Part shown: piece by piece, positions 21,601-39,158 of the stretch
Position numbering within the stretch: position 1 is the stretch's first letter
Layout of the letters: each line of letters opens with the position of its first letter
Assembly: GCA_903929795.1 (NCBI GenBank)
Contig: CAIYWC010000097.1
Span: 248,001 to 312,000 of the forward strand
DNA length: 64,000 bases
DNA from: an uncultured Myxococcales bacterium
Lineage (GTDB): Bacteria; Myxococcota_A; UBA9042
Reading direction: 5' to 3'
Notes under the pieces: generated by a model
Database searches by the model: none
The model's input: the letters and a program-made list of their open reading frames with translations, nothing else
What the model was told of the DNA's origin: nothing
Translations under genes and position numbers: made by a program

Positions 21601-24600
21601 TCGGTGGCCGTCACCGTCAGCGTCGACGCGCCGATCGGCAGGCGCACCAGCGCGTAGAAGTTGCCGTCCTCGTCGACGATCGCGGCCTGGCCTTGGACCT
21701 CCACGCGGTTGGCCCGCAGCGTCTTACCGCGCACCGCGAGCTCCGGCTGTGCCAGCTCCAGCGGGCCCGGCGGCAGCATCACCGACAGTTCTGCGGCCGG
21801 CAGACCGGCGGCTTGTGCGGCAACCGGCGACAGCGCACCGGGCTGGGCCACTTCCGCAGCTGCGGCGGGCAGGGCGACGGCCGCTGGCGCCGAGGTGGCT
21901 CCCGTTGGCACGGCCGCGGCTACGGGCACCGCATCGGCCTGAGCCTTCAGCCCCTCGAGCAGCGCGGCGCCAAAAATCCCGGGATCCGTTGCGGTTTCAC
22001 CTGCCGGCAAGCCGACGGCGGCACGCGCACTGGGCAGCGCTTTGGCACCGACAGTCACGAACTCATCGCGGCCCGCGCCATCGGCTTGCCGCAAACTGAT
22101 CAGCACCTTGCCATCGGCGGGCCGGTCGACAAGGAGTGCGGCGCGGCCGGCGTCGTCCAACTCAAACGGGTTGCCGTTGATCAGCAGCCGCGGTGGCTTG
22201 GCGGCCAGCGTAAACGCGTCCTTGCGCGGATCCGTCACGTTATCGCGCACTTCAAACGGGATTGGCGCCGACCACACGCGGCTGCCCCACTCGGTCTCCG
22301 CGCGCAGGCGCAGGGCATACGGGCGACCGCGGGTCAAATCGCCGATACCGCTGAATCCCGGACGCGCCCGCAGCGTCACCTGCAGCGGCGGATCGCGGCC
22401 ATCCACTTGTTCGACAAGCAGCGCGCCCAAGCGGCCGCCTTCGCCCAGCTCGCGGACTTCCAGCGCGTGGCGGACCCAGCCGCCGGAGTGCTCGACCTGC
22501 AGCACGATCGGCGCCCCAGGCTCCAGCGCCGTCGACGTCGGGTCGGACGGCAGTCGCGGATCGCCCAGCGGTCGCTTGTCCGGCCCCAGCAGCCGCGCGC
22601 GCAGGAACCGCGGCGCCATCACCTTGCTGTCCACGGCAATCGCCAGCGTCGCCGCATCCACGGCCACGGGCACGACGCCCGGGCCCGGCTTGGGCGGCTC
22701 ATCGCGCGGACTGTCCGTCGTCGCGGTCGCCTCCACGCGCGTCGGACCGACCGCCTCGAACTTGCAGGCAATCGGGAACGTCAGCGGCAGCGTCAGGCCA
22801 CGCGTCAGGTACAACACTTTTTGCTCGTCGCCGATCACCGTCGAGCCCGGCGGCAGCGTGTCCGCGTCCAGCTTGAACAGGTGGTTGCCCGGCGGGATGT
22901 CCATCAGGTGCGCGCGGCCATAGGCGTCCGTCACGGCAAACTGGCCAATATCCGCGTAGATCCGCGCGCCGGGCAGGCCGTCCTCGCCGTCGTCCTGCTG
23001 GCCGTTCTGGTTGCCGTCGCAGTACGCTTTGACCAGCACCATGCCCTTGTCAAACAGTGGATCGGCCTGTACCAGGAACTGCGCCGTCGACCGGCCGCTC
23101 AGCTGCTGGCCGGAAATGTCATACAATTGCGCCGCAAATTCAAGCTGTTGACCCGCCTTGGCGGTTGGCGTCACGACCATCTGTGCGCGCAGTGTCAGGC
23201 TGCCACCCGGCGGCAAGTCCAGGCCGACCGGCTTGTTCGTCGTCGGCGAAATGCGGTGCACCACCATCAGCGGCGCGTCCAGCTGCGCCAGCGGGATCTT
23301 GACCGGCAGGTTGTTGGCGCCCAGCACCGTCAGATCCGCGCCGCCCGGCACAAGATTCAGGCCTGTCGGCAGCAGGTTGCGCAGCTCCACGCCGCCGCGG
23401 CCTGTCAGCGCATCCGCGGCAAAGCCCGCGGTGGAGTTGTTCTGCACCGTCACGGTTGCGTACAGCAGATCGCCGACCTGCGCTTGCGCCTTGGACAGCC
23501 GCACGCCGACGGCAATCGCGCTGGACAGCTGCTCCACCGGCAAGTGGTTGTGGCGCGGCGCCGGCGGACCGCCCGTCACCGTCTGTGCGCCCCGACCGCC
23601 CGGCGTCGGCACCGCGGTTGCGCCCTGCAGCGAGAAGCGCGTCAGGTACCGCGGCAGCGTGTTACCGGCGATCTGCGGCAGCGCGTCGGGCACCACCAGA
23701 CCTTGCTTGTCCAGCAGCGCGATGCCCGGATCCGGCCCATGGCCCGCCACAGGGAATGCCAGTCCGGCAGAAACTGTCGCCAATTCAATGCGATACGCGC
23801 GACCAGGCAGCGGCGCGAACATGTACGCGCCCGACGGATCGGTCGTCTGGCCCTGCTGGCCTGGCGGCAGCGCGTCGTCTGCCAGCAGCGCGTTGGGCGC
23901 GACCGGATCGCCCTCGTCATAGCGCAGCCACAGCCGCACGCCCGGCGTTGTCGTGCCCGCGTGCGCGTCGTACACGCGCCCCGTCGGCCGAATCGCCAGA
24001 TCCAGCTTGCCCGACAGCTGGCCCGGGGCGTCGACAATCCGCTCCAGGAACACCGCGCCGCCGGGCGATAGCACGCGCACCCGCCGCTGGCCGTTGGGCA
24101 CGTGCAGCACGTGGTACTGGCCTTGGTCATCGGCGATCGCCGTCAGGATCGGCCCGTCCACGCCCGCAGGCGGCAGCACGGCGACCTGGAAATGCGGGAA
24201 ACGCAGGTCCGTCTGCGGCTCAAACACGTTGTCGTCGATGCCGACATCCTCAAAAATCACACCGGAAATCGCGCCTTCGCCGATCTGCGCGCCGGTCGTC
24301 ACGCACGCCGGCTTGGACTCCGCGTGCACCGTCCCGGCGTTCAGCAGCACGTCCACCTTGGCGATATTGCAGATCGTCGACGCATCCGCCACGTTCGCCG
24401 CCACGCGCGCGCGCACGGACACGACCGCGCTCTCGCCCGCCTGCACCGACAGCCCCACGACCTTCAGCGTCGACCCGTCGTTTTGCAGCACCAGCCCCGG
24501 CGGCAGCAGCACGTCAGAATCCTTCAAGGGATCCATGCCCTTGGGCAGCGTGTCCTGCAGCACGATGCTGTCGGCTTTGGCGTTGCCGTTGTTTTGGACC

Positions 24601-27600
24601 GTCAGCGTGTAGCGCAGCCAGTCGCCCGGCTGCACCGACCCGCCGTTCTCGTCCTGCACGGCCTTGGTCACCGTCACCAGCGGCGCCGCCGGGCCAATCT
24701 GCGTCACGGTTGGCTGATTGCCGTTGCTGTCGTCGTTGTCGGCGTCGGTCGGCTCTGCCGGCACGCCTTTCGCGTTGGCGGTTCCCTGGTTGGACACCAG
24801 CACGCCGCCGAGAATCTTCACCTGGAACGTGACCACGCGCTGGCTGCCCGCGTCGATGGTGCCTAGATCCACGTGCACTTTGCCGGCGCTCACATCCACC
24901 CGACCCGCATCGCCGTCGGCCACGTCCGTCAGCGGTTTGCCATCCAGCATCAGGCTGGATCCGACGTAATGCGTCGTGTTCGGCAGCGGATCGTCCAGTG
25001 TGACCTGCTCCGCCGCGCCCGCGCCCGTGTTGCGCACGGTGACGGTGTAGACAATCGCCTCCCCGATGTCGGCCTGGCCGTTGCCGTTCACGTCCAGCAC
25101 CTGCGCGGTCTTTTGCGTCTGGCGAATCGACGGGCCCTTGCCGATGCTCAGCGTCGCCGGGCCAATCGCGGTCGGCGGCACGTTGTCGGCCACCGCCGTC
25201 GCGGTGTTGGACACCTGCCCGCCCTCCTGCGCGTCCGGCCGCAGCCGCGTGCGGAAGGTCACGACTGCCGCGTTGGCCGTGCCCACCTGCAGCGTGCCGA
25301 GCGCCAGCCCCGCCGCCAACGGCGACGCGCCACTGACATCGGGCACCGTGTTGCCGTTCAGCGTCGTCGAGCCCGGCTCGTAGGTCATGCCCGCCGGCAC
25401 CGCGTCCATCAGTCTCACGCCCGTCAGCGGCGCCGGCGACGTCGCGACCACGGTGATCCGCCACGTCACCGTCTCGCCGGGCATCAGCGCGCCGCCGTTG
25501 TCATCCTTCCCCGTCTTGGTCGACGCCTCCAGCGCGCTTTCGGTCCGCACCAGCACTACGGTCGGGTCATTCACCGTCGGCGTATTCGGGTCATCCGACG
25601 GCACCGCCGCCGGCACCGCGTCCGCCTTGACTTGCGCCTGGTTGGGCACCGTCGCCCCGTCCGGCGTATTCGCCTTGACCCGCGCGTCAAACGTCACGGT
25701 CGCCGTCGCGCCGGGCACCACCGAGGCCAGCGCGGTCGCGTTGGCCGCCGTCCAGGACACCGTCGTCACGCCCGCATTCGTCGTCTGTTTGCCGCCCTGG
25801 CCGACCGCCACGATTTCCAGCCGCGGGTCCAGCACGTCGTCGATCGCCACGTTCTCCGCCGCCGACAAGCCGGTCACCGACACCGCGATCGTGTACCGCA
25901 GCACGTCCAGCGGCGCGACCTTGCCGCCATTCAAATCCTCGACAGTCTTGACGACTTTCAGCTTGGGAATCGCGACAATCGCCAGCGTCGCCGGCTTGGC
26001 GTCGTAGCTGATGCCCGTCTCGCCCTCCTTCGCGCTCGCCTTGCCCTGCGCCACCGCGCCGTTCGCCGCCGTCGGTTTCACCCGCAGCGTCGCCGCCAGC
26101 GCCACCGACGCGCCACCCGGAATGTTCGCCAACCCTGCGTTATTCTTAATCGTCCAGGTCAGCAGCTTCTGCGCGTCGTCCCAGGTCGCGCCCTGGGGCG
26201 CCGTCACGTCAAACAGGGTCGCGTCCACCGGCACCGACACCGTCACGTTGCTCGCGTTTTCCGCCGTCGGCACCGTCACAATCACATGCAGCGTCACGGT
26301 GTCGCCCGGCTGCGCCGGCGTGGTCGCGGGCGCCTCCGGCGTCAGCTTGGTGTCCACCTGCAAGGTCGGGTATTTCACTGGGATGTTCAGCGAATTACTC
26401 AGCTGCTGCGCGGCATTTTGTGCCTTCGCCCGGGCCTGGTTGACGACAACCGTCCCCGTTGGCAGGTTCGGGCCGATCGCCGCATCAAAAGTCACGGTCG
26501 TCGTCTGACCCGGCGCCAGCGTCGGCACCAGCCAGTTCACCGTCGTGCCCGACACGCTGCCGCCTGTCCCGGCAATGGGGCTCACCAGCTGCGCCGGCAG
26601 GTCGTCGCTCACGGCCAGCTGCTGCGCCGCCGCGTTGCCGACGTTTTGCACGACAATCGTGAACCGCGCCTTGTCGCCCGGGAACAGGTGGCCGCCCGTC
26701 AGGTCCGTGTAGCTCTTTTGCAGCGTCAGGATCGGCCGGTTGACCACGAGGACCGGAAGTCCGGGAATCGCCTGTGATTGCAGCAAGTTTTGGGCCGAAG
26801 CTTGGGCCTGTAGCGCCAGCGAATCGCCGTCCTGGTCCGTCGCCGCAACCGTTCCGCGCACCGAGAGCGTCAGCGAGGCGCCCACCGCCACCGACGGCAC
26901 GACCCACGTCACAACGCCGTTCGCCACGGTCCCGCCGCCCAACGCCTGCAGGTTCGCCCACTTCGCGTTCAGCGGCAGCGTCACCGTCACGTTCTTGGCA
27001 TCGGCTTTGCCCGTGTTCTTGAGCTTGACGTCCAGCCGCACCACATTGCCCGGCGCGGCTTGGCCAATCTTTTGCACCCAGCCGCTTTCGTCGTCAGACG
27101 TCAGCGACGACTGGCTCAGGTTGGGCTGCGCGACAACTTTCAGCGTCGCCGTCGGGTTCGGCGTCACCGCCGGAATCTGCGCGATCACGTTCAGCAGCGT
27201 GCCATCCGGCGTGCCCGGCGCGATCGTCGCGCTGATGTGCAGCGTCACATCGCCCGTCGGCGTGATCGAGACGATCGGCACCGTCCAAGCGATCGTCCCC
27301 GCCGTCAGCGTTCCACCGTCAAAAACCTGCACATTGGTCAGCCCCGCCGCGGGCAGCAGCGCCTGGATGTTGACCAGCTGCGCCAGCGCGTCGCCCTTGT
27401 TTTGCAGCACGAGGCTCAGGTTGACCTGATCGCCGGGCTCCAGCGCGCCGCCGTTCATGTCCTGCACGACCCAATGGCTCGGCGACAGGTCGGCCTTGGC
27501 GACCACGGTCACGGTCGTCGGCTCGCGGATCGCGGTCGTCAGGTCCGCGTCCGAAAGCACCGGCACCTGCAGACCGGTCGCCGTGATCTGCGCCTGCTCG

Positions 27601-30600
27601 ATGATCACCGCGCCGTTGAGCTGCGGCGTCTTCACCGTCGTCTGCACCGTCAGCGTCACGGAATCGCCCGGCGCCAGCGTGCCCAGCGTCCACGTCACCG
27701 TTCCGCCCGCCGTGCCCGCGCCCTGGACCACACCGCCGTTGCTCGCCACGATGCTGCCCAGCCGCGCGTCCAGCGGCAGCGTCGCCACCGTCGCCTTCGC
27801 CGCGCCATCGCCGTCATTGCGCACCGTCAGCGTGTACGTCAGCGCATCGCCCGGGCGCACGTCGCCGCCGTTCACGTCCAGCACCGTCAGCTTGGTCTTG
27901 GAGAAGTCGACCTTCGACTGCACGCTCACGGTCGTCGGGTCATTGGCCGTCGGCGTCGTCGGGTCGTCGGACTTCAGCGCCGTCGCTTGGCCGCCATACG
28001 TCACCAGCGCTTGGTTCTGGATCGCCGTGCCGTCGTCCAGCCCGGTCTTGACCGTCGCCGTGAACCGCAGCGTCACTTCGTCCGCGGCGTTCACGCCCAG
28101 CGCGGCGATCACCGGCCAGGTCACTTGACCCTTGGTCGCGTCAAACGCGCCGCCATCCAGCACGACCACGTTTTCCAGCCCTGCCGGTAGCGGATCGACG
28201 ACGGTCACGCCCTTGGCCAGCGCGTTGCCGGTGTTGCGGATCTTCAGCGAATACGTCAGCCCGGTCTTGGGCTTGACCGTCGCCTGGTTCAGCTGCTGGC
28301 CGCCCACCGTCGCGAACACGTTCTTTTGGACAACGACCTGCGACGCGCTCGCCACGTCAAAGCAGGTCGGCGTGCCCGCGGGCGTCAGCGGCGTGTTGGG
28401 CGGGCTTGTAAACGACGCCGCCGGGTTCTCATTTGCCTTGATTTGCGCCTGGTTGCAGACGTGGGTCGCGTTGTCCAGCGGCTTTTTCACCGTTGCGCTT
28501 ACGGTCAGCGGCGTGCTCGCACCGGCGGCCACGTTGCCCAGCGTCCAGGTGACCGTGCCCGTGCTCGCGTTGTAAGCGCCGCCTTGGCCGACTTGCACAT
28601 TCTCGATTTCCTTGGGCAAAACGTCGGTGACAACGACGCCGGTGCCCGCCTGGTTGCCGGAATTGACGATCGTCAGGTTGTAGCTGACCGCCGCGCCGGC
28701 TTGGATCTGCGCCGCGCTGACGGTCTTGGTGCTCGCGCCAAAATCCGGCAGGTTGACGACCGAAAAGCTGATCGTGTTCGTGCTCGCGGTCGACGGCGTC
28801 TCAGTGAACGCCAGCTTGCCGGTGTTGCTGATGAGCGTGCCGCTCGCCGTCGCCTTATCCACCACCGCCGTGAACGTCAGCTCCGGCGGTTTGTCGCCGG
28901 GCAGCAGGCTGGGAATCGCGTTCCAGGTCACGGTTGACGTCGCCGCGTTGAATGTGCCGCCCGTCACGACCACCTGCGTCAGCTGCGGCGCGACGACGTC
29001 CGTGACCACGACGTTGCTCGCCGGGCTGTTGCCGGTGTTGCGCGGGTGGATGAGAAACGTGAGCTTGTCGCCGCCTTGGACGGAGCCGCCGTTGGAGTCG
29101 ACGTAACTCTTGTCGGACGTCGTCAAATTCGGCGCGGAAGTTACTGTAAATACAGTTGGATCCGTCTTTCCAGGCTTGGCAGGATCGTCCGACAGCGCGG
29201 GCGCCAGCAAGCCGTCACCGGTCAGCGTCACCTGATCGCTCACCAGCTTGCCCTGCGGCGCCGGCGTCTGCAGCTTGGCTGTCACCGTCACCGTCTTGGC
29301 CGCGTCACCGTTTTGCAGCGTTCCCACCGGCCAGGTCACCGTTTGGCCCGCCACGGTGCCGCCCGCCGACGCCACAATCGTCCCCAGCGCCGGATCCAGC
29401 GTCGTCGTCAGCACGCCGTTGGTCACCACGCCCTTGCCGGTATTTTGCAGCACGACCGTGTAGGTCACCGTGTCGCCCGGGTTGAACGTGCTGCCGCCCG
29501 AGGACGTGACCACGTCGGTGAACGTCGCAATGTTCGGGCTGGCCTGGACCTTCACCGTCGCGGAAATCGTTTGCGGCTTCGCGAGTTGTGGACCGGTCGC
29601 CGTCGCCACTGCCGCAATGGACGTCCCGTTGATCGCCGTCGCCTTGACCTTGACGCTGTAGTGCAGCACCAGCTGGCCGCCCGCCGCGATGCCCGCCGAG
29701 CTCCAGATGATGCTGTTGCTGCCGGCGTCCAGCGCGCCGCCTCCGTCGATGCCGCTCACGCCTTCGAGGTTCGCGTCCACCGGTAGGGTGATCTGCAGCG
29801 CGCCGGTCGTCACCTTGCCGGTGTTGGTCAGCGTCAGCGTGTAATTCAGCACGTCCGCCGGCTCCAGCGAGCCGCCGTTGACGTCCACCACCGTCAGCAC
29901 CGACGTCGACAGGTCCGGACCGCCCTGGACCGTCGTCACGGGCGTCTGCACCGTCGTCGGCGTCTGGCCGTCGGTCGGCGACAGCGTCGCGAGGTTCTGG
30001 AACGTCTCCCCTGGCGGCGTGTCCGGCTTGATTTGCGCTGTAAAATTCAGGGATTTGGTCTGGCCCGCCGGCACCGTCACCACGCCGGTCAGCACCGTGC
30101 CGTTCAGCGTCAGCTCGGGGCTCTGCGACGAGACGAAGACGAGGCCAGACGGGATCTGGTCGCTCACGTTGACCGTCGCATCGCCCGCGCCGGAGTTCTG
30201 GATATTGATGGTGAATTTCACCTGATCGCCGGGCAGGAACGGCGTGCCGGGTGACAAATCCGTCACCGTCTTGGTCGACTTGGTCAGGTCCGACAGCACC
30301 TGCAGCGTCAGCACCGTCGGGTTCTCCGCGCCGGGCTGGTTGGGATCGTCGGTCTTGTACGTCTTGGCGCCGATGACCGCCGTCCCCTGCGTGTTGACGA
30401 TGTGCCCCGCCACCGGGTTGATGCCAAGCGCTTGCAATGTTGCGAGATCCTTGACTTTTGCCACAATCGTCAAGATGACCTGCTGGCCTGACGCGATCGG
30501 CACTGCGTCAAAGCGCACCTGGCCCGTGCTGTTCACGCCGCCCGTCGCCGTCGACTTGTTGGTGCCCGGACCCGTCGCCGAGATGAACGACAGCTCCGGC

Positions 30601-32339
30601 GGCAGGTCAAAACCCACGGTGTCGATGGAAAGCGCTGTCGCGGAGAGGCTTTGCAGCGTCAGGGTGAACGTCACCGTGCCCGCGGGGCTCTGCTTGAGCG
30701 GCAGCACGGCCAGCGACGGCGGCGCGAGCTGCGGCGGCACCAGCTTGACGACAGACGTCTGCGTCGCGATGGAATCCGCGTACTTGGCGTTGACGTATGT
30801 ATACGAAACCATGCCAGAACTGTCGATTTCCGTGACGCCAGGCACCGCCTTGATCTTGACCTTGAACGTCACCGTGCGGTTGGACTTGCCGCCGGCGGAG
30901 CTGGTCAACGTGCCGAGGTTCAGCCCGGTCGCCAGTGGGCTCTGGCCGCCGATGTCGGGCACGACGGCGCCGTCAACAGTCGTCGAACCCGGCAGATAGT
31001 CGGTGCCAGGCGGCGGAAACGTTGCGAATTTCAAGGTGGTATTGTCCGCGTCGAGCGGCCCGGTGTTGAGCAAGTCGTCCGTGTACGTCAGCGTGTCGCC
31101 GGGCGAAGCTTCCGTGTAGTTGGCGTAGAACTTATTGACAGTGCTCTTGAAATTAGGTGCCTTGCGGTTGACCTGCAGCAGCGTCCAGCCGTAGACGAAG
31201 AACTCGCCGTTGCCCGCCAGATTGTCCTCGTGGTACGCCGGTTCCTGGTTGGTCGCGAGCGTGCCGTCACCGGAAGAGACCACCAAAGTCGCTGTCGTAT
31301 CATTGGGTTTCACCAGAGTCGAGACGTCAAACGTGTCCAGATCGATGCCCGTCTCCGGCGTCGAGTTCATGATGTTGTGCGCTTCATTGTTGCCCGCGCC
31401 GCCGGTCAGTTCGATGCCGTTGAACGAAACGAAATCCCAGCAGCTCGCGCACGGCGGGCTATCCGGACCATTGTTGCCCGGGTCCTGCTCCGGATTGCCC
31501 AGCTGCTTGTCGCCCTCCAGCGCGTAATACGTCAGCTGCGCGTCGGGCGGATCGGCCACCAGGAAGTCACTGATCGCAAACTTGATTTGCCCAACCGAGC
31601 TGACCTGCTCGTCCAGCAGCACGTAGCCGTCGTACAGGAACACATCGCGCAGCGTCGTCTCGGAAAACGCCGTGTCGTAGACGAAAACCATGGTCCACGA
31701 GGCGTACCGCGCCTGGCAGGCGATGTCGCCCTGCGCGCAGCACACGGTCTCAGCGATCGCCGGGTCGCCCGGCTTTTGGCCGCACGGCTCCGCTGCCGTC
31801 GCGATGTGGATGTTGGCGACTTTCGCGTCGATGCCGCCGACTGTGTACGTGCCATTCCAGTGGTCGGAGCCAGGGTGTGCCTGCAAAAGCGACGTGATAT
31901 CGCGGCGGCAATAGTAGTGCGTGCCGGTGCCGTTGGGCGTCGGGTCGGTGCGCGTGTCGCAGCCGTCCGCGGCGAGCGTCTGCTGGGCGCCGTCGGCGAG
32001 CGTCAGCACGGCTGTGTTGTCGTAGCCGGTGCTCGGCTCCGACGCGCCCCAATACAGGTAAGCGCCGACGATTTTGGCGTCCTGCGGCATCTTTTGGGCG
32101 ATTTTGACGGTGTCGGAACTCTGCGCCAGCAGCTTGTCGTTGAAGCGGTAGTCGATGAAGTTGGTGACAAGGCTCGCGCCCAGCTGTACCGACTTGCCGT
32201 AGACTTTGAACGCCTTGGGCGCGGACGGATAGTTGCCGACCACGAGCGCGTGCGCGGGCGCGGCGCTGGCGAGCACGCAGGCGATCGGCAGGAGCCAACC
32301 CAACGCGTGTGCTCGCCATTTCCGCCACCCGTACGTCAT
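18678..32339 (-). CDS. Giant (4553 aa) DUF11-repeat surface protein with C-terminal outer-membrane barrel
   Basis: Signal peptide ends ASAAPAHA. Residues ~30-390 form an unrecognised N-terminal domain with a few Cys. About 17 tandem DUF11-type beta-sandwich modules (P-G-D-x-x-x-Y-T/x-V-x-N-T-G pattern) fill ~390-2680. Residues ~2690-3680 mix Cna-B/SdrD-like domains (AISGVIFEDVG, VKAYCDGNQNGQQDDGEDGLPG), another DUF11 unit and Ig-like segments. From ~3690 the sequence (YPVYGDASAP, LIGNFAARLQG, alternating hydrophobic strands, C-terminal Tyr) looks like an outer-membrane beta-barrel. This would place a very long stalk outside the cell or in the periplasm, tethered by its own barrel. Likely roles: adhesion or surface layer. 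AGGAAG lies 9 bases before the start. Confidence 0.85.
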   Translation of the reverse strand: MTYGWRKWRAHALGWLLPIACVLASAAPAHALVVGNYPSAPKAFKVYGKSVQLGASLVTNFIDYRFNDKLLAQSSDTVKIAQKMPQDAKIVGAYLYWGASEPSTGYDNTAVLTLADGAQQTLAADGCDTRTDPTPNGTGTHYYCRRDITSLLQAHPGSDHWNGTYTVGGIDAKVANIHIATAAEPCGQKPGDPAIAETVCCAQGDIACQARYASWTMVFVYDTAFSETTLRDVFLYDGYVLLDEQVSSVGQIKFAISDFLVADPPDAQLTYYALEGDKQLGNPEQDPGNNGPDSPPCASCWDFVSFNGIELTGGAGNNEAHNIMNSTPETGIDLDTFDVSTLVKPNDTTATLVVSSGDGTLATNQEPAYHEDNLAGNGEFFVYGWTLLQVNRKAPNFKSTVNKFYANYTEASPGDTLTYTDDLLNTGPLDADNTTLKFATFPPPGTDYLPGSTTVDGAVVPDIGGQSPLATGLNLGTLTSSAGGKSNRTVTFKVKIKAVPGVTEIDSSGMVSYTYVNAKYADSIATQTSVVKLVPPQLAPPSLAVLPLKQSPAGTVTFTLTLQSLSATALSIDTVGFDLPPELSFISATGPGTNKSTATGGVNSTGQVRFDAVPIASGQQVILTIVAKVKDLATLQALGINPVAGHIVNTQGTAVIGAKTYKTDDPNQPGAENPTVLTLQVLSDLTKSTKTVTDLSPGTPFLPGDQVKFTINIQNSGAGDATVNVSDQIPSGLVFVSSQSPELTLNGTVLTGVVTVPAGQTKSLNFTAQIKPDTPPGETFQNLATLSPTDGQTPTTVQTPVTTVQGGPDLSTSVLTVVDVNGGSLEPADVLNYTLTLTNTGKVTTGALQITLPVDANLEGVSGIDGGGALDAGSNSIIWSSAGIAAGGQLVLHYSVKVKATAINGTSIAAVATATGPQLAKPQTISATVKVQASPNIATFTDVVTSSGGSTFNPGDTVTYTVVLQNTGKGVVTNGVLTTTLDPALGTIVASAGGTVAGQTVTWPVGTLQNGDAAKTVTVTAKLQTPAPQGKLVSDQVTLTGDGLLAPALSDDPAKPGKTDPTVFTVTSAPNLTTSDKSYVDSNGGSVQGGDKLTFLIHPRNTGNSPASNVVVTDVVAPQLTQVVVTGGTFNAATSTVTWNAIPSLLPGDKPPELTFTAVVDKATASGTLISNTGKLAFTETPSTASTNTISFSVVNLPDFGASTKTVSAAQIQAGAAVSYNLTIVNSGNQAGTGVVVTDVLPKEIENVQVGQGGAYNASTGTVTWTLGNVAAGASTPLTVSATVKKPLDNATHVCNQAQIKANENPAASFTSPPNTPLTPAGTPTCFDVASASQVVVQKNVFATVGGQQLNQATVKPKTGLTYSLKIRNTGNALAKGVTVVDPLPAGLENVVVLDGGAFDATKGQVTWPVIAALGVNAADEVTLRFTATVKTGLDDGTAIQNQALVTYGGQATALKSDDPTTPTANDPTTVSVQSKVDFSKTKLTVLDVNGGDVRPGDALTYTLTVRNDGDGAAKATVATLPLDARLGSIVASNGGVVQGAGTAGGTVTWTLGTLAPGDSVTLTVQTTVKTPQLNGAVIIEQAQITATGLQVPVLSDADLTTAIREPTTVTVVAKADLSPSHWVVQDMNGGALEPGDQVNLSLVLQNKGDALAQLVNIQALLPAAGLTNVQVFDGGTLTAGTIAWTVPIVSITPTGDVTLHISATIAPGTPDGTLLNVIAQIPAVTPNPTATLKVVAQPNLSQSSLTSDDESGWVQKIGQAAPGNVVRLDVKLKNTGKADAKNVTVTLPLNAKWANLQALGGGTVANGVVTWVVPSVAVGASLTLSVRGTVAATDQDGDSLALQAQASAQNLLQSQAIPGLPVLVVNRPILTLQKSYTDLTGGHLFPGDKARFTIVVQNVGNAAAQQLAVSDDLPAQLVSPIAGTGGSVSGTTVNWLVPTLAPGQTTTVTFDAAIGPNLPTGTVVVNQARAKAQNAAQQLSNSLNIPVKYPTLQVDTKLTPEAPATTPAQPGDTVTLHVIVTVPTAENASNVTVSVPVDATLFDVTAPQGATWDDAQKLLTWTIKNNAGLANIPGGASVALAATLRVKPTAANGAVAQGKASAKEGETGISYDAKPATLAIVAIPKLKVVKTVEDLNGGKVAPLDVLRYTIAVSVTGLSAAENVAIDDVLDPRLEIVAVGQGGKQTTNAGVTTVSWTAANATALASVVPGATATVTFDARVKANTPDGATVPNQAQVKADAVPAAVPSDDPNTPTVNDPTVVLVRTESALEASTKTGKDDNGGALMPGETVTWRITVVATSPAPLTGVRLMDAVPAGMTYEPGSTTLNGNTVPDVSGASPLAAGLALGTLQVGTANAAVVTFRTRLRPDAQEGGQVSNTATAVADNVPPTAIGPATLSIGKGPSIRQTQKTAQVLDVNGNGQADIGEAIVYTVTVRNTGAGAAEQVTLDDPLPNTTHYVGSSLMLDGKPLTDVADGDAGRVDVSAGKVHVDLGTIDAGSQRVVTFQVKILGGVLVSNQGTANAKGVPAEPTDADNDDSNGNQPTVTQIGPAAPLVTVTKAVQDENGGSVQPGDWLRYTLTVQNNGNAKADSIVLQDTLPKGMDPLKDSDVLLPPGLVLQNDGSTLKVVGLSVQAGESAVVSVRARVAANVADASTICNIAKVDVLLNAGTVHAESKPACVTTGAQIGEGAISGVIFEDVGIDDNVFEPQTDLRFPHFQVAVLPPAGVDGPILTAIADDQGQYHVLHVPNGQRRVRVLSPGGAVFLERIVDAPGQLSGKLDLAIRPTGRVYDAHAGTTTPGVRLWLRYDEGDPVAPNALLADDALPPGQQGQTTDPSGAYMFAPLPGRAYRIELATVSAGLAFPVAGHGPDPGIALLDKQGLVVPDALPQIAGNTLPRYLTRFSLQGATAVPTPGGRGAQTVTGGPPAPRHNHLPVEQLSSAIAVGVRLSKAQAQVGDLLYATVTVQNNSTAGFAADALTGRGGVELRNLLPTGLNLVPGGADLTVLGANNLPVKIPLAQLDAPLMVVHRISPTTNKPVGLDLPPGGSLTLRAQMVVTPTAKAGQQLEFAAQLYDISGQQLSGRSTAQFLVQADPLFDKGMVLVKAYCDGNQNGQQDDGEDGLPGARIYADIGQFAVTDAYGRAHLMDIPPGNHLFKLDADTLPPGSTVIGDEQKVLYLTRGLTLPLTFPIACKFEAVGPTRVEATATTDSPRDEPPKPGPGVVPVAVDAATLAIAVDSKVMAPRFLRARLLGPDKRPLGDPRLPSDPTSTALEPGAPIVLQVEHSGGWVRHALEVRELGEGGRLGALLVEQVDGRDPPLQVTLRARPGFSGIGDLTRGRPYALRLRAETEWGSRVWSAPIPFEVRDNVTDPRKDAFTLAAKPPRLLINGNPFELDDAGRAALLVDRPADGKVLISLRQADGAGRDEFVTVGAKALPSARAAVGLPAGETATDPGIFGAALLEGLKAQADAVPVAAAVPTGATSAPAAVALPAAAAEVAQPGALSPVAAQAAGLPAAELSVMLPPGPLELAQPELAVRGKTLRANRVEVQGQAAIVDEDGNFYALVRLPIGASTLTVTATDKAGNRAILERPVTVKDRALFLLAIADGSVSHVGAHLEEVDQPGSLAIGNVQLTGRVALYAKGRVSGEFLGLKDLSFTAHVDTAKDPNLQDFATNLIDPTKFYPVYGDASAPTQDVKARGQLYILVEAERTKFLIGNFAARLQGIELLRYDRTLYGAWLEFSRKYGDFDTTVKGFAAQQDATVARHTDVMRGTGGSLYYLSVRDVVEGSERIDLVIRDRISGMELGRIPQARNTDYVIDPVQGRLTFKSPVSGAVDGTLLLGQTGLAGQSMTWNGQPLFVETTYEARGVQSTDSVSFGGQLREKFANGRVDVGGSYVQEGRADAPTYRVAGGDVVVKLGERSKMTGEYAFSQSRDTLLAVSDDGGLTFGQQTQPTTTTSAGQPVQGQAVKVAVDLDLRDVLGRSPDARPTDLPPDVTGVNDRGRVRAWYQWMQAGFQSGGSILQQGMQKAGVDAMLPLSQRNTLQVRYDGLFSDGGVANPYSAPGTGTQYGAVGGLVGTGSVLPPGSLANQNANPTSSFLSLSQQTASVQDAHKLDAKWTLLGANTVAYGLDSLGTGRTSDTVAAGAAYRATDRLVLRADQQGIIGGDPTQFRNTADHLSTALGVEYKIAKDLAVVVSERLGWAGQNATSAGLRTMLDKSTSLYVQQRLEDSNATGHLVSSSVVGAESRYGDDQKTRAYGEYQVDALNDARMNRAVMGVGKRFEVAKGVNLDAGYERQQTFAAGGGNTSRDALSLGLEWLRAEKYKVTSRQEVRLDQGDPNFGGVRKLQILTLNNGQVGLSKEWTLFGRANYTRTQNQTTDTLEAEALEATLGAAFRPITHNWLNLITKVSHLIDQRPSTDGTGTTERSVKDILSIEPVAQLPLRFEFSQKAALRRVTEALADMTPENSSTLLLISRLGWHVTDRIDLATEYRFLETLLTKDLQHGALLEVAWRFAKALRVGGGYNFTHFTETNAGDIRTTDQGGFFMRMTGMY
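24290..31165 (-). repeat. Tandem array of about 17 DUF11-type modules
   Basis: Divergent protein-level repeats of ~110-140 residues in the giant gene. Units open with motifs such as D-V-N-G-G-x-L-x-P-G-D and run through Y-T-L-T-V-x-N-T-G and V-T-W-x-x-G-T-L-x-x-G. DNA identity between units is moderate, so the array is old rather than a recent expansion. Confidence 0.8.
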
Positions 32340-32394: not shown

Positions 32395-34113
32395 CTAATA
32401 GTTCGGATTCCAGAGCACGACGTCCGTGCGGCCGGTCAAGGGCGAACCGCCGGCGCCGCCGACGATGAGCACGTGGCCGGTGTTCAAGCCCACCGCAGCG
32501 CCCAGCGCGCGGCCGCCGTCGCCCAGGAGGTTCTGGATCGGGTCGACGTTGGTCGCCACGCCGCCCGCGCCGTCGTCGTCCTCGTGCAAGTATTCGCCGC
32601 TGTTCAAGTGGTTGGTGTCGGAGTCACTGCCGCCGGCGATGAGCAGCTGTCCGGTGGCTGGCCCGGACGTCACCGCAGCGACGCTCGGCGCGGCGCGGCC
32701 GTTGGTCAGTTGCTTGGTGGCGACGATCTTGCTCTGCACGATGTCAAACACGTCTACCGTCTTGTTGGCGCTGGAGTGCGCGACGTCGTTAAAGCCGCCG
32801 ATCATGTAGACGTGGTAGTAGTTGGCCGTGGCATTGGCGACAAAAAGCGCGGCGGGCCAGATGCGCGTCGGCTGGTTGTCGTAAGACACTGGATTCCAAA
32901 GGAAACCGGCTGGCGTGGTCGGACAATCCGCCGGGCAGTTCGTCATCGCGTCGGACACGAGCACGCTGCCGTTGGCCACCGTGAACTGGACGACCTCCAT
33001 CTTGTTGACGGCGCCCTGGGTGTTTTCGCCGCCGATCAGCATCACGAAGCCACCGTCGGGGCCGGGCACGCGCACGCCCGCGTGGTGCCAGCGCGCGGTG
33101 GTGAGCTGGCCCATGGCCTTGAAGCCGCCCGTTGCATGCCAGATTTCCCACGTATTACCACCACATGCGCCAGCGTGCGGATCGGCGGGGCAGTCTTCAT
33201 TGCCTTGGCCGCCGAGGATCAGGAAATAATCCTGGTGGTCGAACATCTGGATGACCGTCGGCGCGATACGGCCAAAATGCATCGTGGGTACCGTCTGCGT
33301 CGGGCTTGTCACTTCCCCGGTCGCGATGTTGTAAAACTCAATCTTATTCGAGGCTTTTGGCGCATTCGTCGCATCCATTTCCACGCCGCCCACGATCGCC
33401 ACGACCGTCTGGCCGACTGCCATCGTGTGGAATGCCCGGGGCGTCGCGAGCTGCCCCGCCGGATCTGTCGCCACGTCCAAGGCCCGCGTGTCCGGGTCGT
33501 ACACCGCGATGGTCGACTGGAACGATGCGTAACTCGCACGATCAAACGCGCTTTTTGCGCTGCCTTTGGGTACTGCGCCTCCGGCCATCACCACCTTGCC
33601 GTTTGGCAGCGTCGCCACGCCGGTCGCCGCGTGCGCAGCCGGCAGCTCCGTCTGCGGCGAATTGCCCGACGCGTCCGGCTCGCCAAACGCCGCGGCGAAC
33701 GTGTTGATGCGGGTCACGTACGGGTGGAGCTCCAGCGCCGCGGAATCCGCGTACACGTCCGTGGGCACCGTCGCGCCGCGCGCAATCGCGCTCGTGGGCT
33801 GCGTGTCGCCGTTATACACGTCGACGCGAATCTGCCGCGCGGCGCCAAAAGGCACCGAAGGCGCCGCGACTTGCATGCCCTGGGCATAAGGCTGGATATT
33901 CGAGGGCTTGCCGTCCGAGCCCAGAAAATCCGCGAACATCACAATGAACCGCGAATCCGCCGTCCCCAGCGGGTTATCGCCGTTGGCCGGCACGCGGACC
34001 GCCACGATGAGCTTGTTTTCCTGCTTGGCCGTCGTGGCTTGGCACGCAGCCAGCAGCGTCAACGCGGGCAACGCCAGAAGATGGCTCAGTTTTGAGGTGC
34101 GGCGGGTCAGCAT
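32395..34113 (-). CDS. Kelch-repeat lipoprotein
   Basis: 572 residues from Met 34113, giving a lipoprotein signal ending LTLLAAC; a Met at 34158 overlapping the upstream stop (ATGA) would add 15 residues ahead of the signal and is less likely. From about residue 130 there are repeated Kelch blades: ATGVATLPNGKVVMAGG, AFHTMAVGQTVVAIVGG, HAGVRVPG...MLIGG, MIGGFNDV, GQLLIAGG and TGHVLIVGG, consistent with a beta-propeller. Propellers of this kind bind proteins or glycans. Middle gene of the envelope run, immediately before the giant surface protein. Confidence 0.85.
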   Translation of the reverse strand: MLTRRTSKLSHLLALPALTLLAACQATTAKQENKLIVAVRVPANGDNPLGTADSRFIVMFADFLGSDGKPSNIQPYAQGMQVAAPSVPFGAARQIRVDVYNGDTQPTSAIARGATVPTDVYADSAALELHPYVTRINTFAAAFGEPDASGNSPQTELPAAHAATGVATLPNGKVVMAGGAVPKGSAKSAFDRASYASFQSTIAVYDPDTRALDVATDPAGQLATPRAFHTMAVGQTVVAIVGGVEMDATNAPKASNKIEFYNIATGEVTSPTQTVPTMHFGRIAPTVIQMFDHQDYFLILGGQGNEDCPADPHAGACGGNTWEIWHATGGFKAMGQLTTARWHHAGVRVPGPDGGFVMLIGGENTQGAVNKMEVVQFTVANGSVLVSDAMTNCPADCPTTPAGFLWNPVSYDNQPTRIWPAALFVANATANYYHVYMIGGFNDVAHSSANKTVDVFDIVQSKIVATKQLTNGRAAPSVAAVTSGPATGQLLIAGGSDSDTNHLNSGEYLHEDDDGAGGVATNVDPIQNLLGDGGRALGAAVGLNTGHVLIVGGAGGSPLTGRTDVVLWNPNY

Positions 34114-34154
34114 GATCTCGCTCCGGGGGCGGTCAGTGGGCAGCGTGAGGCGGC

Positions 34155-35735
34155 TCATGGGATGATCCCGACGGCGGTGAAGCCGGTCGCGGGCGCGGGC
34201 TGGCGCGTGGCGGCGTAGATGATGCCGGCAGCGGCACCGACCACGACGACGCCGCCGATGGTCCACGGCCACCACTTCTTGTACCACGGCTTCTTTTGCG
34301 TCTCGTCTTCGTCGTGCAGCAGACCAGCGTACGGGTCCGCGTTCGCGTCCAGCGCCGTCTCCACTTCCGGCACCGGCGCAACTTTGGGCTCGGGCTTGGG
34401 CGCGGGCGTCGGCTTGGCCTTGGGCAGCGGCGCCTCCTCCTCCTGAACCGGCGGCGCGACTGGCACAACGGCCGCCGCAGGCTCCGCCGTCGCTTCGCGG
34501 CTGGCATCAAAAACCGCTGGCAAATCCTCGACTTCCTTGCACGTCGTCAGCGCCGCGCGCACGCGCCCTTCGGCGTCCAGCGTCTTCATCTGCAGATCGC
34601 CCAGCGTCGGCTGGTAGTCGACCTTGTCCAGCGCGCACGACCGCTTGGTCTTGGCCTGGAACAAGAACAGGTGCAGCTCCAGCGACCGCGCGCTCTTGGA
34701 CACGACGCCGTAGAGCAGATACTGCGCACCGATCTGCTTGCTGAACATGGACGCCATGTTTTTGAAGACTTTTTCGTGGAAATTGCCGCTGCCGGCGAAC
34801 GCCTTGATGTCCTCAGGCGGCACCGTCAGGCCGATGGAGCTCGGATCCTCTTCCAGCTTGATGTTGGCGCTGACTGCGCCGTCTTTACCTTTGGCAACAA
34901 AGACTTGGCCCCACGGCAGCGCGCCGACTTTGCGGACCTGGACGTAGTGCGTGCCCTGCAGCAAATCCTTGGCTTGGGACGGGCAATTGCCGACTTTCAC
35001 GCCGTCGACAAACACGTCCGCGCCCGCCAGCGGGCAGTCAACGCTCAGGTTGGCGCCTTCCTTGTCGGCCAGGCCTTGGCGCGCGGCGGTCAGCGCCTGC
35101 TGCAGCGGTTTGGACGCCTTGCGCGTGTCCACCACAAAAGTCGGCTGTAGCACCACGGCCTTTTCCAGCCATTCCCGCGCGCCCTTGGCGTCGTTGAGCT
35201 TGAGCGACACCGCCGCCGCCTGCGCGTACACGTCCACCAGCTTGGTGAAATCGACAAGCTCCACGAAGTTGTCCTCGTAGCGCTGCGCCGCCGCCTTGAG
35301 CAGCTTCATCGTATCGGCCGGATCCTCGTTGTCCTCCACCATCGTCCGCGCCGTCACGGACAGCGTGTCCGCGCGCTCCAGGGCTTTTTGCGCCGGAGTC
35401 TGCGGTTTTTCCTTCACTTCCTTGACGATCGGCGTCAGCGGCTTGCCGGAATCGATGACCTTGGCCGGGAGGGGCCGCAGCGCGTCGCCGGCGCTCAACA
35501 TCTGCCGCAGGTATTCCTCGATGCGCGCCGCCGCGAGCACGCCGACCTCGCCTTTGCGGGCAAAAGGCACGATGCCGATCGCCGGCTTCTCCGGCTCCTG
35601 CGCCCACGCCTGGCTGCCGCCCCAGCGCTGCGGCAGCGGCATCAGCAGGGACGCGGTGGAGAACGTCAGCAGCAACACCTGCGCCACGCAACGCAGCGCG
35701 ACGTCTTTTTGCACAATTGCCCTGGAACGGGACAC
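34155..35735 (-). CDS. PEGA-like domain envelope protein
   Basis: 526 residues from a GTG start at 35735, chosen for GGAGGT 5 bases upstream; it also gives a signal-like N-terminus (VAQVLLLTFSTASLLMPL ... AWAQ). Residues ~45-90 (AIGIVPFARKGEVGVLAAARIEEYLRQML) resemble proteins that score periplasmic components; a helical, tetratricopeptide-like middle follows, then a PEGA-like domain (ADVFVDGVKVGNCP ... GTHYVQVRKVG). A Pro/Ala/Lys linker leads to a C-terminal membrane helix (WWPWTIGGVVVVGAAAGIIY). Myxobacteria carry many such proteins of unknown role. It precedes the Kelch lipoprotein by 41 bp. Confidence 0.7.
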   Translation of the reverse strand: MSRSRAIVQKDVALRCVAQVLLLTFSTASLLMPLPQRWGGSQAWAQEPEKPAIGIVPFARKGEVGVLAAARIEEYLRQMLSAGDALRPLPAKVIDSGKPLTPIVKEVKEKPQTPAQKALERADTLSVTARTMVEDNEDPADTMKLLKAAAQRYEDNFVELVDFTKLVDVYAQAAAVSLKLNDAKGAREWLEKAVVLQPTFVVDTRKASKPLQQALTAARQGLADKEGANLSVDCPLAGADVFVDGVKVGNCPSQAKDLLQGTHYVQVRKVGALPWGQVFVAKGKDGAVSANIKLEEDPSSIGLTVPPEDIKAFAGSGNFHEKVFKNMASMFSKQIGAQYLLYGVVSKSARSLELHLFLFQAKTKRSCALDKVDYQPTLGDLQMKTLDAEGRVRAALTTCKEVEDLPAVFDASREATAEPAAAVVPVAPPVQEEEAPLPKAKPTPAPKPEPKVAPVPEVETALDANADPYAGLLHDEDETQKKPWYKKWWPWTIGGVVVVGAAAGIIYAATRQPAPATGFTAVGIIP

Positions 35736-35840
35736 GATCGACCTCCGAGTCTGACGGGTGCGTGCATCGACGCGCACTGACGCGAGCGTGAGACGCAACC
35801 TGCAAGTTTGCCTGAAACACACCCGCTTGCCAAACAACCG

Positions 35841-36632
35841 TTAGGGCCGCTGGAGCGCCTGATCGGGTCTTGGCAAAACGACAATGCCCACCGGTACTTG
35901 AACCGGCGTCGGCACGCTGACGTGCACCAAACCGGCGTCGATTTCCAGCATGGTCGACGGTCCACCGTCCAGGTTCAGGGCATTGGACAATCCAGGACCG
36001 CCGTCGCGCTCGGAACGTTGCAGGAATGTTGTCAACTCCTGCAGCTGCAGCACGCCCTCGCTCACCACCAGCACGACCCGCCCCGTGCCGTCGGAGCCCA
36101 ACGCCGTACGGCGCGCTTGGCCCGGCTTGAACGTCATCGGCTGGCCGTCCACCAGCAGCCGCGGCCCGCACTCCACCGCAAATTCCAGCTCCGGCAGCGG
36201 CTTCCAGTCCCGCGCGTGGCGCAGCAGCGGCTGTTGCGCGGCGATCCCGAACACGCCGTGGTCGACGTGGCGCAGGGGCGACAGTGTCTCGCCATTGTCC
36301 ACCAGCAGGCCCAGCGGCTTGTACGCCGGATCGAAGAAACCGCCGTTGATCGCCGCCACCGCGCCCGGTAGCGCCGCGCGAAAGTCCGCCGGACTGCCCA
36401 GCTGCCGCCCCATTTTTTGCGGAGTCACGACGCGCAGCTGCCACTGGCGCGGCGTCAACCGCAGGAGGTGCAGCGCGACGGGCTGCTGGTCCTCGCCGAC
36501 CAACAGCTCCGCCTTCGCGTATTCCAGGCCGGGCAGCGCGGTTTGCCAGTGCAGCGGCTCGCGCACGGGCGCACGGGTACACGCGCAGAGCGCGAGCAGC
36601 CACAGCAGGGTCGTGGAGCGAAGCGGATTCAC
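35841..36632 (-). CDS. Phosphodiester glycosidase (NAGPA/DUF2233-like) lipoprotein
   Basis: 263 residues. Lipoprotein-type start (LRSTTLLWLLALCAC). The body has the hallmarks of the NAGPA family: AAINGGFFDPAYKPLGLLVDNG, ECGPRLLVDG, RRTALG and LNLDGGPSTML. Members hydrolyse sugar phosphodiesters; bacterial ones often sit with exopolysaccharide genes. Here it lies 30 bp after the disulfide-enzyme fusion and 105 bp before the PEGA-like gene. Substrate unknown; an envelope polysaccharide or teichoic-like phosphodiester is a guess. Confidence 0.85.
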   Translation of the reverse strand: MNPLRSTTLLWLLALCACTRAPVREPLHWQTALPGLEYAKAELLVGEDQQPVALHLLRLTPRQWQLRVVTPQKMGRQLGSPADFRAALPGAVAAINGGFFDPAYKPLGLLVDNGETLSPLRHVDHGVFGIAAQQPLLRHARDWKPLPELEFAVECGPRLLVDGQPMTFKPGQARRTALGSDGTGRVVLVVSEGVLQLQELTTFLQRSERDGGPGLSNALNLDGGPSTMLEIDAGLVHVSVPTPVQVPVGIVVLPRPDQALQRP

Positions 36633-36662: not shown

Positions 36663-39158
36663 TCAAAGCTGACTTTTCACGGCCGAGCGCAGTTTTTCCA
36701 GCTGCTCTTCCGGCTTGAAGCCCGTGTCCATGAACCGCACGATGCCCTGGCGGTCGATGATGAACGTCGCCGGCATCGAGTACACGTTGAATTGGCCCAT
36801 CAGCTCGCTCTCCGCGTCGCTGATCACGCTCCAGTTCGCCTCGAAGCCCTTGGCAAATTCCTGCGACTTGCCCGTCTCGCGATCGACGCCCACCGAGACG
36901 ATCTGGAAGCCTTTGGCCTTGTTTTCCTTGTACAAATTGACCAACTCGGGGAATTCCTTCTTGCACGGGCCGCACCAGCTGGCAAAGAAGTTGATGAGCG
37001 TGACCTTGCCCTTGAAATCCTTGGTGTTGATCGGATTGCCCGCGGTGTCCTTGACGCTGAATGCCGGCACGGGCTTGCCGACCATCTCCCCGTCATCCTT
37101 GGCGATTTTGTTGGCGTCAATCTTGCCCTGCTGGACGTCCGTGTCGGCGCAGCAGCGAAATCCGGTCGTCATGTTGCGGTTGCCGATGCCAAAGCTGGCG
37201 GAGCGCTGGTTGCACGCCGCGCGTTCGCCGGAGCTGTTGTGGCCGCCCATCAAGCCTGCCGTCTCCTTGGTCGTGCCGGTCCACTCGCCGATGTTGCCGG
37301 CGAGGTCGAAAATCCCGCTGGGCGTGCGGCATTTTTCCAGGCTGCCGGTCTTGCCGGCCTTGCCCTTGTACTTGTCTTCCTGGTCGCGGCAGACGCCGAC
37401 TTCGTAGAACGAGCCGTACGGGTACATGTTGCCCTCGACGTTGTCGTCGGCGAACTGGCCGTTTTTGTTCTCGTCGATCGGCGGCGTGCCGGTGCAGGCG
37501 GCGGTCCATTCCTCCTCGGTGCACAGGCGCTTGCCGGCCTTTTGGCACGCGGCGTCGGACTCGGTCCAGCTCGCCAGCGCCGGCTCCACGTCCGGCAGGC
37601 TCACGGCCTTGCCGTCCTGGGTCAGCGTCGCCTCGTACGCGTCGATGAAGAACGACTTGGTCGCCGTCTTCCCGCCGATCATGTGCGATCCGTCCGGCTT
37701 GGGCGCCATCACGACCGGCGCACCGGCGGGCGCAGCGCCCTGGGCTTCCGGGTGCTCAAGCGATTTTTCGATGTAATATTCAAGAATTGCCGTCGACGCC
37801 GAGCCCGTCACCAACCGGCCGTTGATGTACGTCCGCGGCGCGCCGTTGATGCCGGCCTTCACGGCGAGGTCGATGTCGTGGTTGATGCGCTGCTGCACCG
37901 TCGGGTCCTTCACGCACGCGTCGTATTTCGCCATGTCCAGGCCCAGCTCGGTCGCATAACCGCGATTGGACTCGGGATCCAGCTTCGGCTGCGCGGCATA
38001 CAGCTTGTCGTGCATTTCCCAGAACTTGCCCTGCCGGCCGGCGCAGATGCCGGTGATCGACGCATTGCATGCGTTCGGGTGCTTGTCGTAGCCGGCCATG
38101 TAGCGGTTGCAGCTGGGGTTCATCGGGAAATGCTTCATGATAAAGCGGACTTTATCTTTGTACTTGGCCTTGACCGGCTCCATCGTCAGCGCGAGGTATT
38201 TGCAGTACGGGCACTCGAAATCCGAGTACTTGACGACCGTCACCTTGGCGTCCGGATTGCCGAAAACGTAGTCTTCTCCGTCGATTGGCGTCAGGTAGAA
38301 CGTGTAGCCGTCCTCGGTTTTCTTGCCGCTGGGCACGCCGACGCCCGCCGGTGGCGTCGCTGCCGCTGCCGGTGCCGCTTGAACCGCTGCAGCCGCCGGG
38401 GCGCCGCCGGTGTTTTCGGCGACGTTTGCCGGTTCGGCGGGCTTGGCGCCGCCGGCAAAAGCTTGATCCAATTCGGCTTTTTCCTGCGCCAGCCGGCCCA
38501 CTTCCATGCGCGCCTTGGTCGAGTCGTAGCCATACCAAGCCACGCCGCCGGCGATGATGAAGACGCCGAGCGAAACTGGCAGTGGCTCGGCGAGACTGGC
38601 CAAGCCCTTCAACGCATTGAGAATTCCCGCGCCAATGGTCCTGGGCCCCGCGGCGACGGCGAGCGCGGTCACGGCGAAGTTGATGAGGTAGAGCGAGACG
38701 CAGTAGAGGCAGTAGGCGCCAACCTGGGTGGAGGAGTACCAAATCAGCGCGCAGGACATCAGGCTGCACAACACGCCGATGCCCACGACGCCGTTCAACG
38801 CCATCGCGCCGGCCTCGCGCACGGCTTTGTCGGTGGTCTTGAGCGCCGCCAGCGCTTTCCAGGTCAGCCAGATCACCACGGCGTAAGTCGGGATGCCGAG
38901 CACGCTGATTGGGATGCCTTTGATCTCCGACCAGCCGGACATGTTGACCGCGTCGCAGTTGATCGAGCCGCCGAGGTTGCAGCTGGAGACGTAGCCCTTG
39001 GTGTAGAGGATCGACAGCTTGTGGTGTGCCAAGAAGATCGACACGCCGATGCCGGCTGCGCACAAGGCTATGATCGCATAGAGAAAATTGGGTAGGCCGG
39101 GCAGTCCCGAATCCTGAGTTGCGTCGCGGCGGGCCTGGTTGTGAGCGGCATCGGCCAT
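36663..39158 (-). CDS. Four-module disulfide enzyme: VKOR - DsbA-like - SUMF1/FGE-like - TlpA-like thioredoxin
   Basis: 831 residues from Met 39158 (AGGAG upstream). Residues ~22-210: vitamin K epoxide reductase membrane bundle with loop Cys C60 and C68 and active-site C150-L-Y-C153. After an Ala/Pro linker, ~285-470: DsbA-like thioredoxin fold with C316-P-Y-C319 and cis-Pro loop GAPRTY. Residues ~490-672: SUMF1/formylglycine-enzyme-like fold (FFIDAYEAT, CTEEEWTAAC, PSGIFDLAGNIGEW, GFRCC). Residues ~690-831: TlpA-like thioredoxin with FFASWCGPC (C729, C732) and cis-Pro SMPATF. VKOR would re-oxidise the DsbA module using quinone; the TlpA module is normally reducing. First gene of the envelope-protein run. 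Confidence 0.93.
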   Translation of the reverse strand: MADAAHNQARRDATQDSGLPGLPNFLYAIIALCAAGIGVSIFLAHHKLSILYTKGYVSSCNLGGSINCDAVNMSGWSEIKGIPISVLGIPTYAVVIWLTWKALAALKTTDKAVREAGAMALNGVVGIGVLCSLMSCALIWYSSTQVGAYCLYCVSLYLINFAVTALAVAAGPRTIGAGILNALKGLASLAEPLPVSLGVFIIAGGVAWYGYDSTKARMEVGRLAQEKAELDQAFAGGAKPAEPANVAENTGGAPAAAAVQAAPAAAATPPAGVGVPSGKKTEDGYTFYLTPIDGEDYVFGNPDAKVTVVKYSDFECPYCKYLALTMEPVKAKYKDKVRFIMKHFPMNPSCNRYMAGYDKHPNACNASITGICAGRQGKFWEMHDKLYAAQPKLDPESNRGYATELGLDMAKYDACVKDPTVQQRINHDIDLAVKAGINGAPRTYINGRLVTGSASTAILEYYIEKSLEHPEAQGAAPAGAPVVMAPKPDGSHMIGGKTATKSFFIDAYEATLTQDGKAVSLPDVEPALASWTESDAACQKAGKRLCTEEEWTAACTGTPPIDENKNGQFADDNVEGNMYPYGSFYEVGVCRDQEDKYKGKAGKTGSLEKCRTPSGIFDLAGNIGEWTGTTKETAGLMGGHNSSGERAACNQRSASFGIGNRNMTTGFRCCADTDVQQGKIDANKIAKDDGEMVGKPVPAFSVKDTAGNPINTKDFKGKVTLINFFASWCGPCKKEFPELVNLYKENKAKGFQIVSVGVDRETGKSQEFAKGFEANWSVISDAESELMGQFNVYSMPATFIIDRQGIVRFMDTGFKPEEQLEKLRSAVKSQL

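Follow-up and report, generated by a model that had tools for sequence, protein, structure and literature searches.

In model bacteria, disulfide formation and disulfide reduction run through different proteins, a division that prevents a wasteful short circuit between the two pathways. A gene in the window analysed here, a stretch of 64,000 nucleotides from an uncultured Myxococcota genome, raises the question of whether both activities can be carried by one polypeptide chain. The gene and its parts, in positions of the window, are as follows:

36663..39158, minus strand: whole gene VKOR-DsbA-SUMF-TlpA, 831 aa (Pfam domains; conserved in the family)
38658..39077, minus strand: VKOR domain, residues 28-167 (Pfam PF07884; Cys conservation)
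38514..38582, minus strand: fifth transmembrane helix, about residues 193-215 (AlphaFold helix 193-235)
37767..38276, minus strand: DsbA-fold module (Thioredoxin_4), residues 295-464 (Pfam, alignment, Foldseek)
37119..37706, minus strand: SUMF1/FGE-like domain, residues about 485-680 (Pfam PF03781; PDB alignment; 62-sequence columns)
36699..37082, minus strand: TlpA/ResA-like module, residues about 693-820 (Pfam, NCBIfam, Foldseek, alignment)

The coding frame opens with ATG at 39158 and runs without interruption through 831 codons to the stop at 36663 on the minus strand, at the coordinates given for a single frame in the initial annotation. The four-part order proposed there was borne out by Pfam, which recognized VKOR at residues 28-167 (E 1.9e-20), Thioredoxin_4/DSBA at 295-464 (6.3e-24), FGE-sulfatase at 521-632 (4.6e-11) and AhpC-TSA/Redoxin at 693-819 (1.9e-28), each match exceeding its cut-off, with two different thioredoxin (Trx) modules in one chain. 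All four domains were present in 20 of 20 aligned relatives. The catalytic cysteines (60/68/150/153, 316/319 and 729/732) lie at the positions reported earlier and were conserved in an alignment of 33 sequences wherever the respective region was present (Cys60 in 30 of 31). The AlphaFold model contains four VKOR helices, a long fifth helix (193-235), a linker of low confidence and three soluble domains; its pTM of 0.41 for the full-length protein, and of 0.62 for residues 278-831, is too low to place the domains relative to each other.

That the frame is an assembly chimera or a read-through of separate genes is extremely improbable. All 22 genomes of the window's family, among them the one from which the window comes, carry the gene, with few exceptions at full length, at 49-90% identity to the window protein and with no internal stops; a mis-joined frame was rejected on these grounds, and relatives of such divergence that lack stops show the gene to be real, not a product of chance or mis-joining. 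Its carriers form an uncultured freshwater group of Myxococcota. Across 284 Myxococcota genomes, of which 195 contain a VKOR, the family profile matched 53 at E <= 1e-60; a few of these matches cover the VKOR-DsbA part only, and the four-part arrangement recurs in other Myxococcota families. A four-part gene was also seen in a UBP10_UBA1149 MAG (L016), nested among Myxococcota in the tree, and this occurrence may reflect transfer, mis-binning or reclassification. A record titled as a Klebsiella pneumoniae MAG (L012) encodes a protein of about 70% identity within the gene cluster typical of the family, and its title is probably mislabelled. A literature search restricted to open-licence papers found no description of the four-part architecture. 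The architecture is firm, undescribed in the open literature, and extends the known VKOR-DsbA fusions.

The first half of the protein has the make-up of a VKOR-DsbA oxidase: a VKOR domain with both cysteine pairs, Cys60/68 in the loop and Cys150/153 (CLYC) on the quinone side, a fifth helix, and a C-terminal Trx module with a CXXC motif. The proteobacterial and spirochaete VKOR-thioredoxin/DsbA fusions (PMC4555120) share with it the four-helix VKOR core, the two Cys pairs, the fifth helix and the thioredoxin-fold module that comes next. Unlike them, the protein described here carries two added domains, SUMF and TlpA, and its DsbA active site is never CPHC when SUMF is present. An Ala/Pro-rich linker extends from the fifth helix to about residue 275, with low pLDDT at 230-269 in the AlphaFold model. 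By analogy with the VKOR family, VKOR would draw electrons from the DsbA-fold module via Cys60/Cys68 and hand them to quinone via Cys150/Cys153, and through this flow the chain would make disulfides in exported proteins.

The repertoire of Dsb proteins in the family gives this half additional weight. The VKOR of the fusion is the only one in the window genome, and DsbB, DsbC_N and DsbD_N (DsbD-alpha) were each found in 0 of 22 family genomes; these are draft genomes, and the absences are firmest for the 15 with at least 90% completeness and at most 5% contamination. Since the fusion holds the window's sole VKOR and DsbB, DsbC and DsbD-alpha are lacking throughout the 22 genomes, it is probably the main source of disulfides in the window's family. 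A general role is further indicated by 10 of the 22 genomes, in which the fusion was the only VKOR found. Proteins with DsbD_TM occurred in 20 of 22 family genomes, and the larger one of the window genome ends in a C-terminal Thioredoxin_7 domain with a WCANC motif.

The CXXC motif and the residues that flank it predict the direction of a thiol-disulfide reaction only loosely. The DsbA-fold module carries C316-PY-C319, a cis-proline at 441 and extra cysteines at 350, 364, 372 and 415, and its Foldseek matches comprised 3gyk, BdbD (3eu3), ScsC (7rgv) and alpha-DsbA2 (6eez). Histidine in the CXXC motif was found in none of 60 SUMF-linked proteins versus 13 of 24 two-part VKOR-DsbA proteins; next to SUMF, the oxidase motif CPHC never occurs, and CPYC or CGYC are commonest. 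CPYC is present in 18 of 22 proteins of the window's family, and outside the family CGYC (17/38) is the most frequent motif, accompanied by CPFC (10/38). Position -6 holds Lys in 22/22 of the window's family, with Glu kept in 20 of 38 proteins outside it. CGYC is the motif of DsbC and PmScsC and CPYC that of DsbG and CcScsC (PMC6450060, PMC7089426), and such isomerase-type motifs overlap with those of oxidases (PMC6450060). Known DsbA-fold isomerases (PMC6450060), namely ScsC (CPYC in Caulobacter, CGYC in Proteus), Wolbachia alpha-DsbA2 and L. pneumophila DsbA2, have the fold (Foldseek 7rgv and 6eez) and the CXXC motifs in common with the module; they are oligomers with N-terminal extensions, whereas the module of the fusion is joined in one chain to VKOR and TlpA, and its cis-proline is preceded by Ala (AcP) in 15 of 22 proteins of the window's family. 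The remaining seven have TcP, which was considered as an isomerase sign specific to the fusion and dropped, GTcP being found in 21 of 24 two-part proteins as well. Because CPHC is absent and motifs of the DsbG/ScsC/DsbC type mostly take its place, the DsbA module may also take part in correction; judged by its motif, it would give disulfides to clients and could shuffle wrong ones.

The presence of a SUMF1/FGE-like domain between the two Trx modules, as originally annotated, holds up: the PF03781 match scored 43 bits against a cut-off of 23.3, and the cysteines of the structural disulfides are kept. Human FGE has structural disulfides 218-365 and 235-346 (PMC4505483), which correspond to Cys538-669 and Cys555-649 of the fusion, invariant in 62 of 62 sequences; four further cysteines of the domain (546, 590, 610 and 670) are equally invariant, giving eight in total. 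In the PDB alignment, the catalytic Cys336/Cys341 of FGE fall on Gly639/Gly644, and a column check found Cys at these positions in 0 of 62 relatives. A working FGE was thus rejected. The domain shares with FGE (SUMF1) and SUMF2 the family match and the four cysteines of two structural disulfides, and its best sequence match in the PDB is SUMF2; it differs from FGE in the missing catalytic pair, the four extra invariant cysteines and its smaller size. AlphaFold modelled the fold at low confidence. Since the catalytic cysteines have been lost and eight others are invariant, the domain is probably inactive as FGE and stabilised by as many as four disulfides, and it may serve as a spacer or client platform. 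A side branch (L230, L233 and L234) has DxxS in place of the DsbA CXXC and retains the eight SUMF cysteines and the four extra DsbA cysteines; no TlpA was seen adjoining these genes, two of the three being cut by contig or locus ends.

The last module carries C729-GP-C732, Asn723 at -6, Glu735 at +6 and a cis-proline at 796. Its nearest solved structures are ResA and DsbE/CcmG-type proteins, and ResA was ranked first by NCBIfam with a score under the curated cut-off. In DsbA, BdbD and PDI a buried Glu occupies the position six residues ahead of CXXC, and the reductants CcmG, ResA and StoA have no acid at -6 and a buried Glu six past the first cysteine (PMC3961690). Among fused TlpA modules, an acid at -6 was found in 0 of 47 and Glu at +6 in 45 of 47, which is the reductant pattern, and by this residue rule the active site of the TlpA module is of the reductant type. 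TlpA/ResA/CcmG reductants agree with the module in WCGPC, in 34% identity to ResA (structural alignment), in Glu at +6 and in the lack of an acid at -6; they are normally separate proteins, whereas here the module is the terminal part of an oxidase chain. These data bear on the unlikely possibility of a purely oxidising relay, in which VKOR would oxidise both thioredoxin modules and TlpA would act as a second oxidase for other clients. No known oxidase other than VKOR was found in the window genome, and according to PMC3853704 the TlpA/DsbE-fold proteins DsbE and DsbF of M. tuberculosis assist oxidative folding; however, the retained reductant pattern and the ResA and DsbE/CcmG-type structural relatives argue against such a relay, as do the short DsbD/CcdA-type electron carriers in these genomes.

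A functional tie between TlpA and the rest of the chain is strongly supported by genes in which the two are split. Three-part VKOR-DsbA-SUMF genes, ending after SUMF, occur in other families, and a separate TlpA gene lies directly upstream on the same strand in 10 of 10 complete three-part genes versus 1 of 20 two-part VKOR-DsbA genes (Fisher 3.7e-7; the 10 split genes form one clade in the tree and are not 10 independent events). Because TlpA adjoins all complete three-part genes and hardly any two-part ones, it belongs functionally with the VKOR-DsbA-SUMF unit. The separate TlpA proteins inspected by eye have signal-like N-terminal segments. In a quick TlpA tree, most separate copies group with unrelated TlpA at a support of 94, below threshold and too weak to tell fission from replacement of the separate TlpA. 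The earlier proposal of an oxidising VKOR-DsbA half joined to a reductant-type TlpA half is thereby supported, its TlpA part being strengthened by the split pairs and the residues at -6 and +6. A tether between two unrelated jobs is quite unlikely: VKOR-DsbA would make disulfides and TlpA would reduce unrelated partners, possibly apocytochrome c, CuA centres or peroxiredoxins, the two being linked for co-regulation only. TlpA/ResA/CcmG proteins do normally act on such partners, and a route from ScsB via TlpA to PprX has been described (PMC5403849), but this explanation accounts neither for the SUMF-dependent company of TlpA with VKOR-DsbA nor for the altered DsbA active site.

Tandem DsbA modules were observed in several Myxococcota genes. 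One gene (L111 106-3099) is a five-part variant, VKOR-DsbA-DsbA-SUMF-TlpA, and two loci of the window genome, L224 980-3157 (contig C179) and L225 280-2988 (C58), encode large proteins in which three DsbA modules follow one another. Tandem-DsbA genes followed directly by a TlpA gene were found in L022, L024, L026, L027, L035, L040, L068, L075 and L076, with four DsbA copies in most and two in the nearest, L024, gene; these genes, which include neither VKOR nor SUMF, are another way in which Myxococcota pair DsbA with TlpA.

We consider the chances about even that the fusion is a membrane-anchored periplasmic thiol-disulfide machine with several functions per chain, which both makes and corrects disulfides; its main rivals are the purely oxidising relay and the two unrelated jobs on one tether. 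In such a machine, the TlpA/ResA module would reduce incorrect disulfides in clients shared with the DsbA module, or reset that module, and would probably be recharged by a short DsbD consisting of the membrane and C-terminal thioredoxin parts. The dead, disulfide-braced SUMF domain would keep the two thioredoxin modules at a distance from each other and may also bind clients. An oxidant and a reductant in one chain carry the risk of a futile cycle. More tentatively, the chain could be a self-contained Dsb system that forms disulfides, proofreads them and takes them apart, with quinone-linked oxidising modules set against a DsbD-linked reducing one and the dead FGE domain in between, standing in for DsbA, DsbB and DsbC in this lineage.

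The surroundings of the gene offer a candidate client. The fusion heads a five-gene cluster (18678-39158, minus strand), the next gene of which starts 30 bp downstream:

35841..36632, minus strand: NAGPA-type phosphodiester glycosidase, probable lipoprotein (Pfam PF09992; family gene order)
34155..35837, minus strand: PEGA-domain protein, probably exported, start approximate (domain match; family gene order)
32395..34164, minus strand: Kelch-repeat protein, probable lipoprotein, start approximate (domain match; family gene order)
18678..32339, minus strand: DUF11-repeat giant, 4553 aa, end of the conserved cluster (family loci comparison)

This order is kept in those loci of the family that are long enough to show it, and the giant DUF11 protein was found in 14 loci. 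Its N-terminal 300 residues contain eight cysteines conserved in most of 15 sequences. The giant is a plausible client of the fusion and, by the shared cluster, the likeliest dedicated one in the window's family. Both the conserved order and the eight cysteines would suit a system that serves chiefly this cluster and matures the giant and its exported neighbours; such dedication is nevertheless decidedly unlikely, as the relatives outside the family (L016, L018 and L020) lack these neighbours and the genomes with no other VKOR found point to a general role. An anti-phage defence role was also considered and dropped, PADLOC giving no match.

A conserved natural fusion of an oxidant and a reductant, occurring also as a split pair, would show that coupling of the two is possible and would provide a ready test object. 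For the Myxococcota that lack DsbB, DsbC and DsbD-alpha, the fusion would help to explain how their Cys-rich exported proteins are folded.
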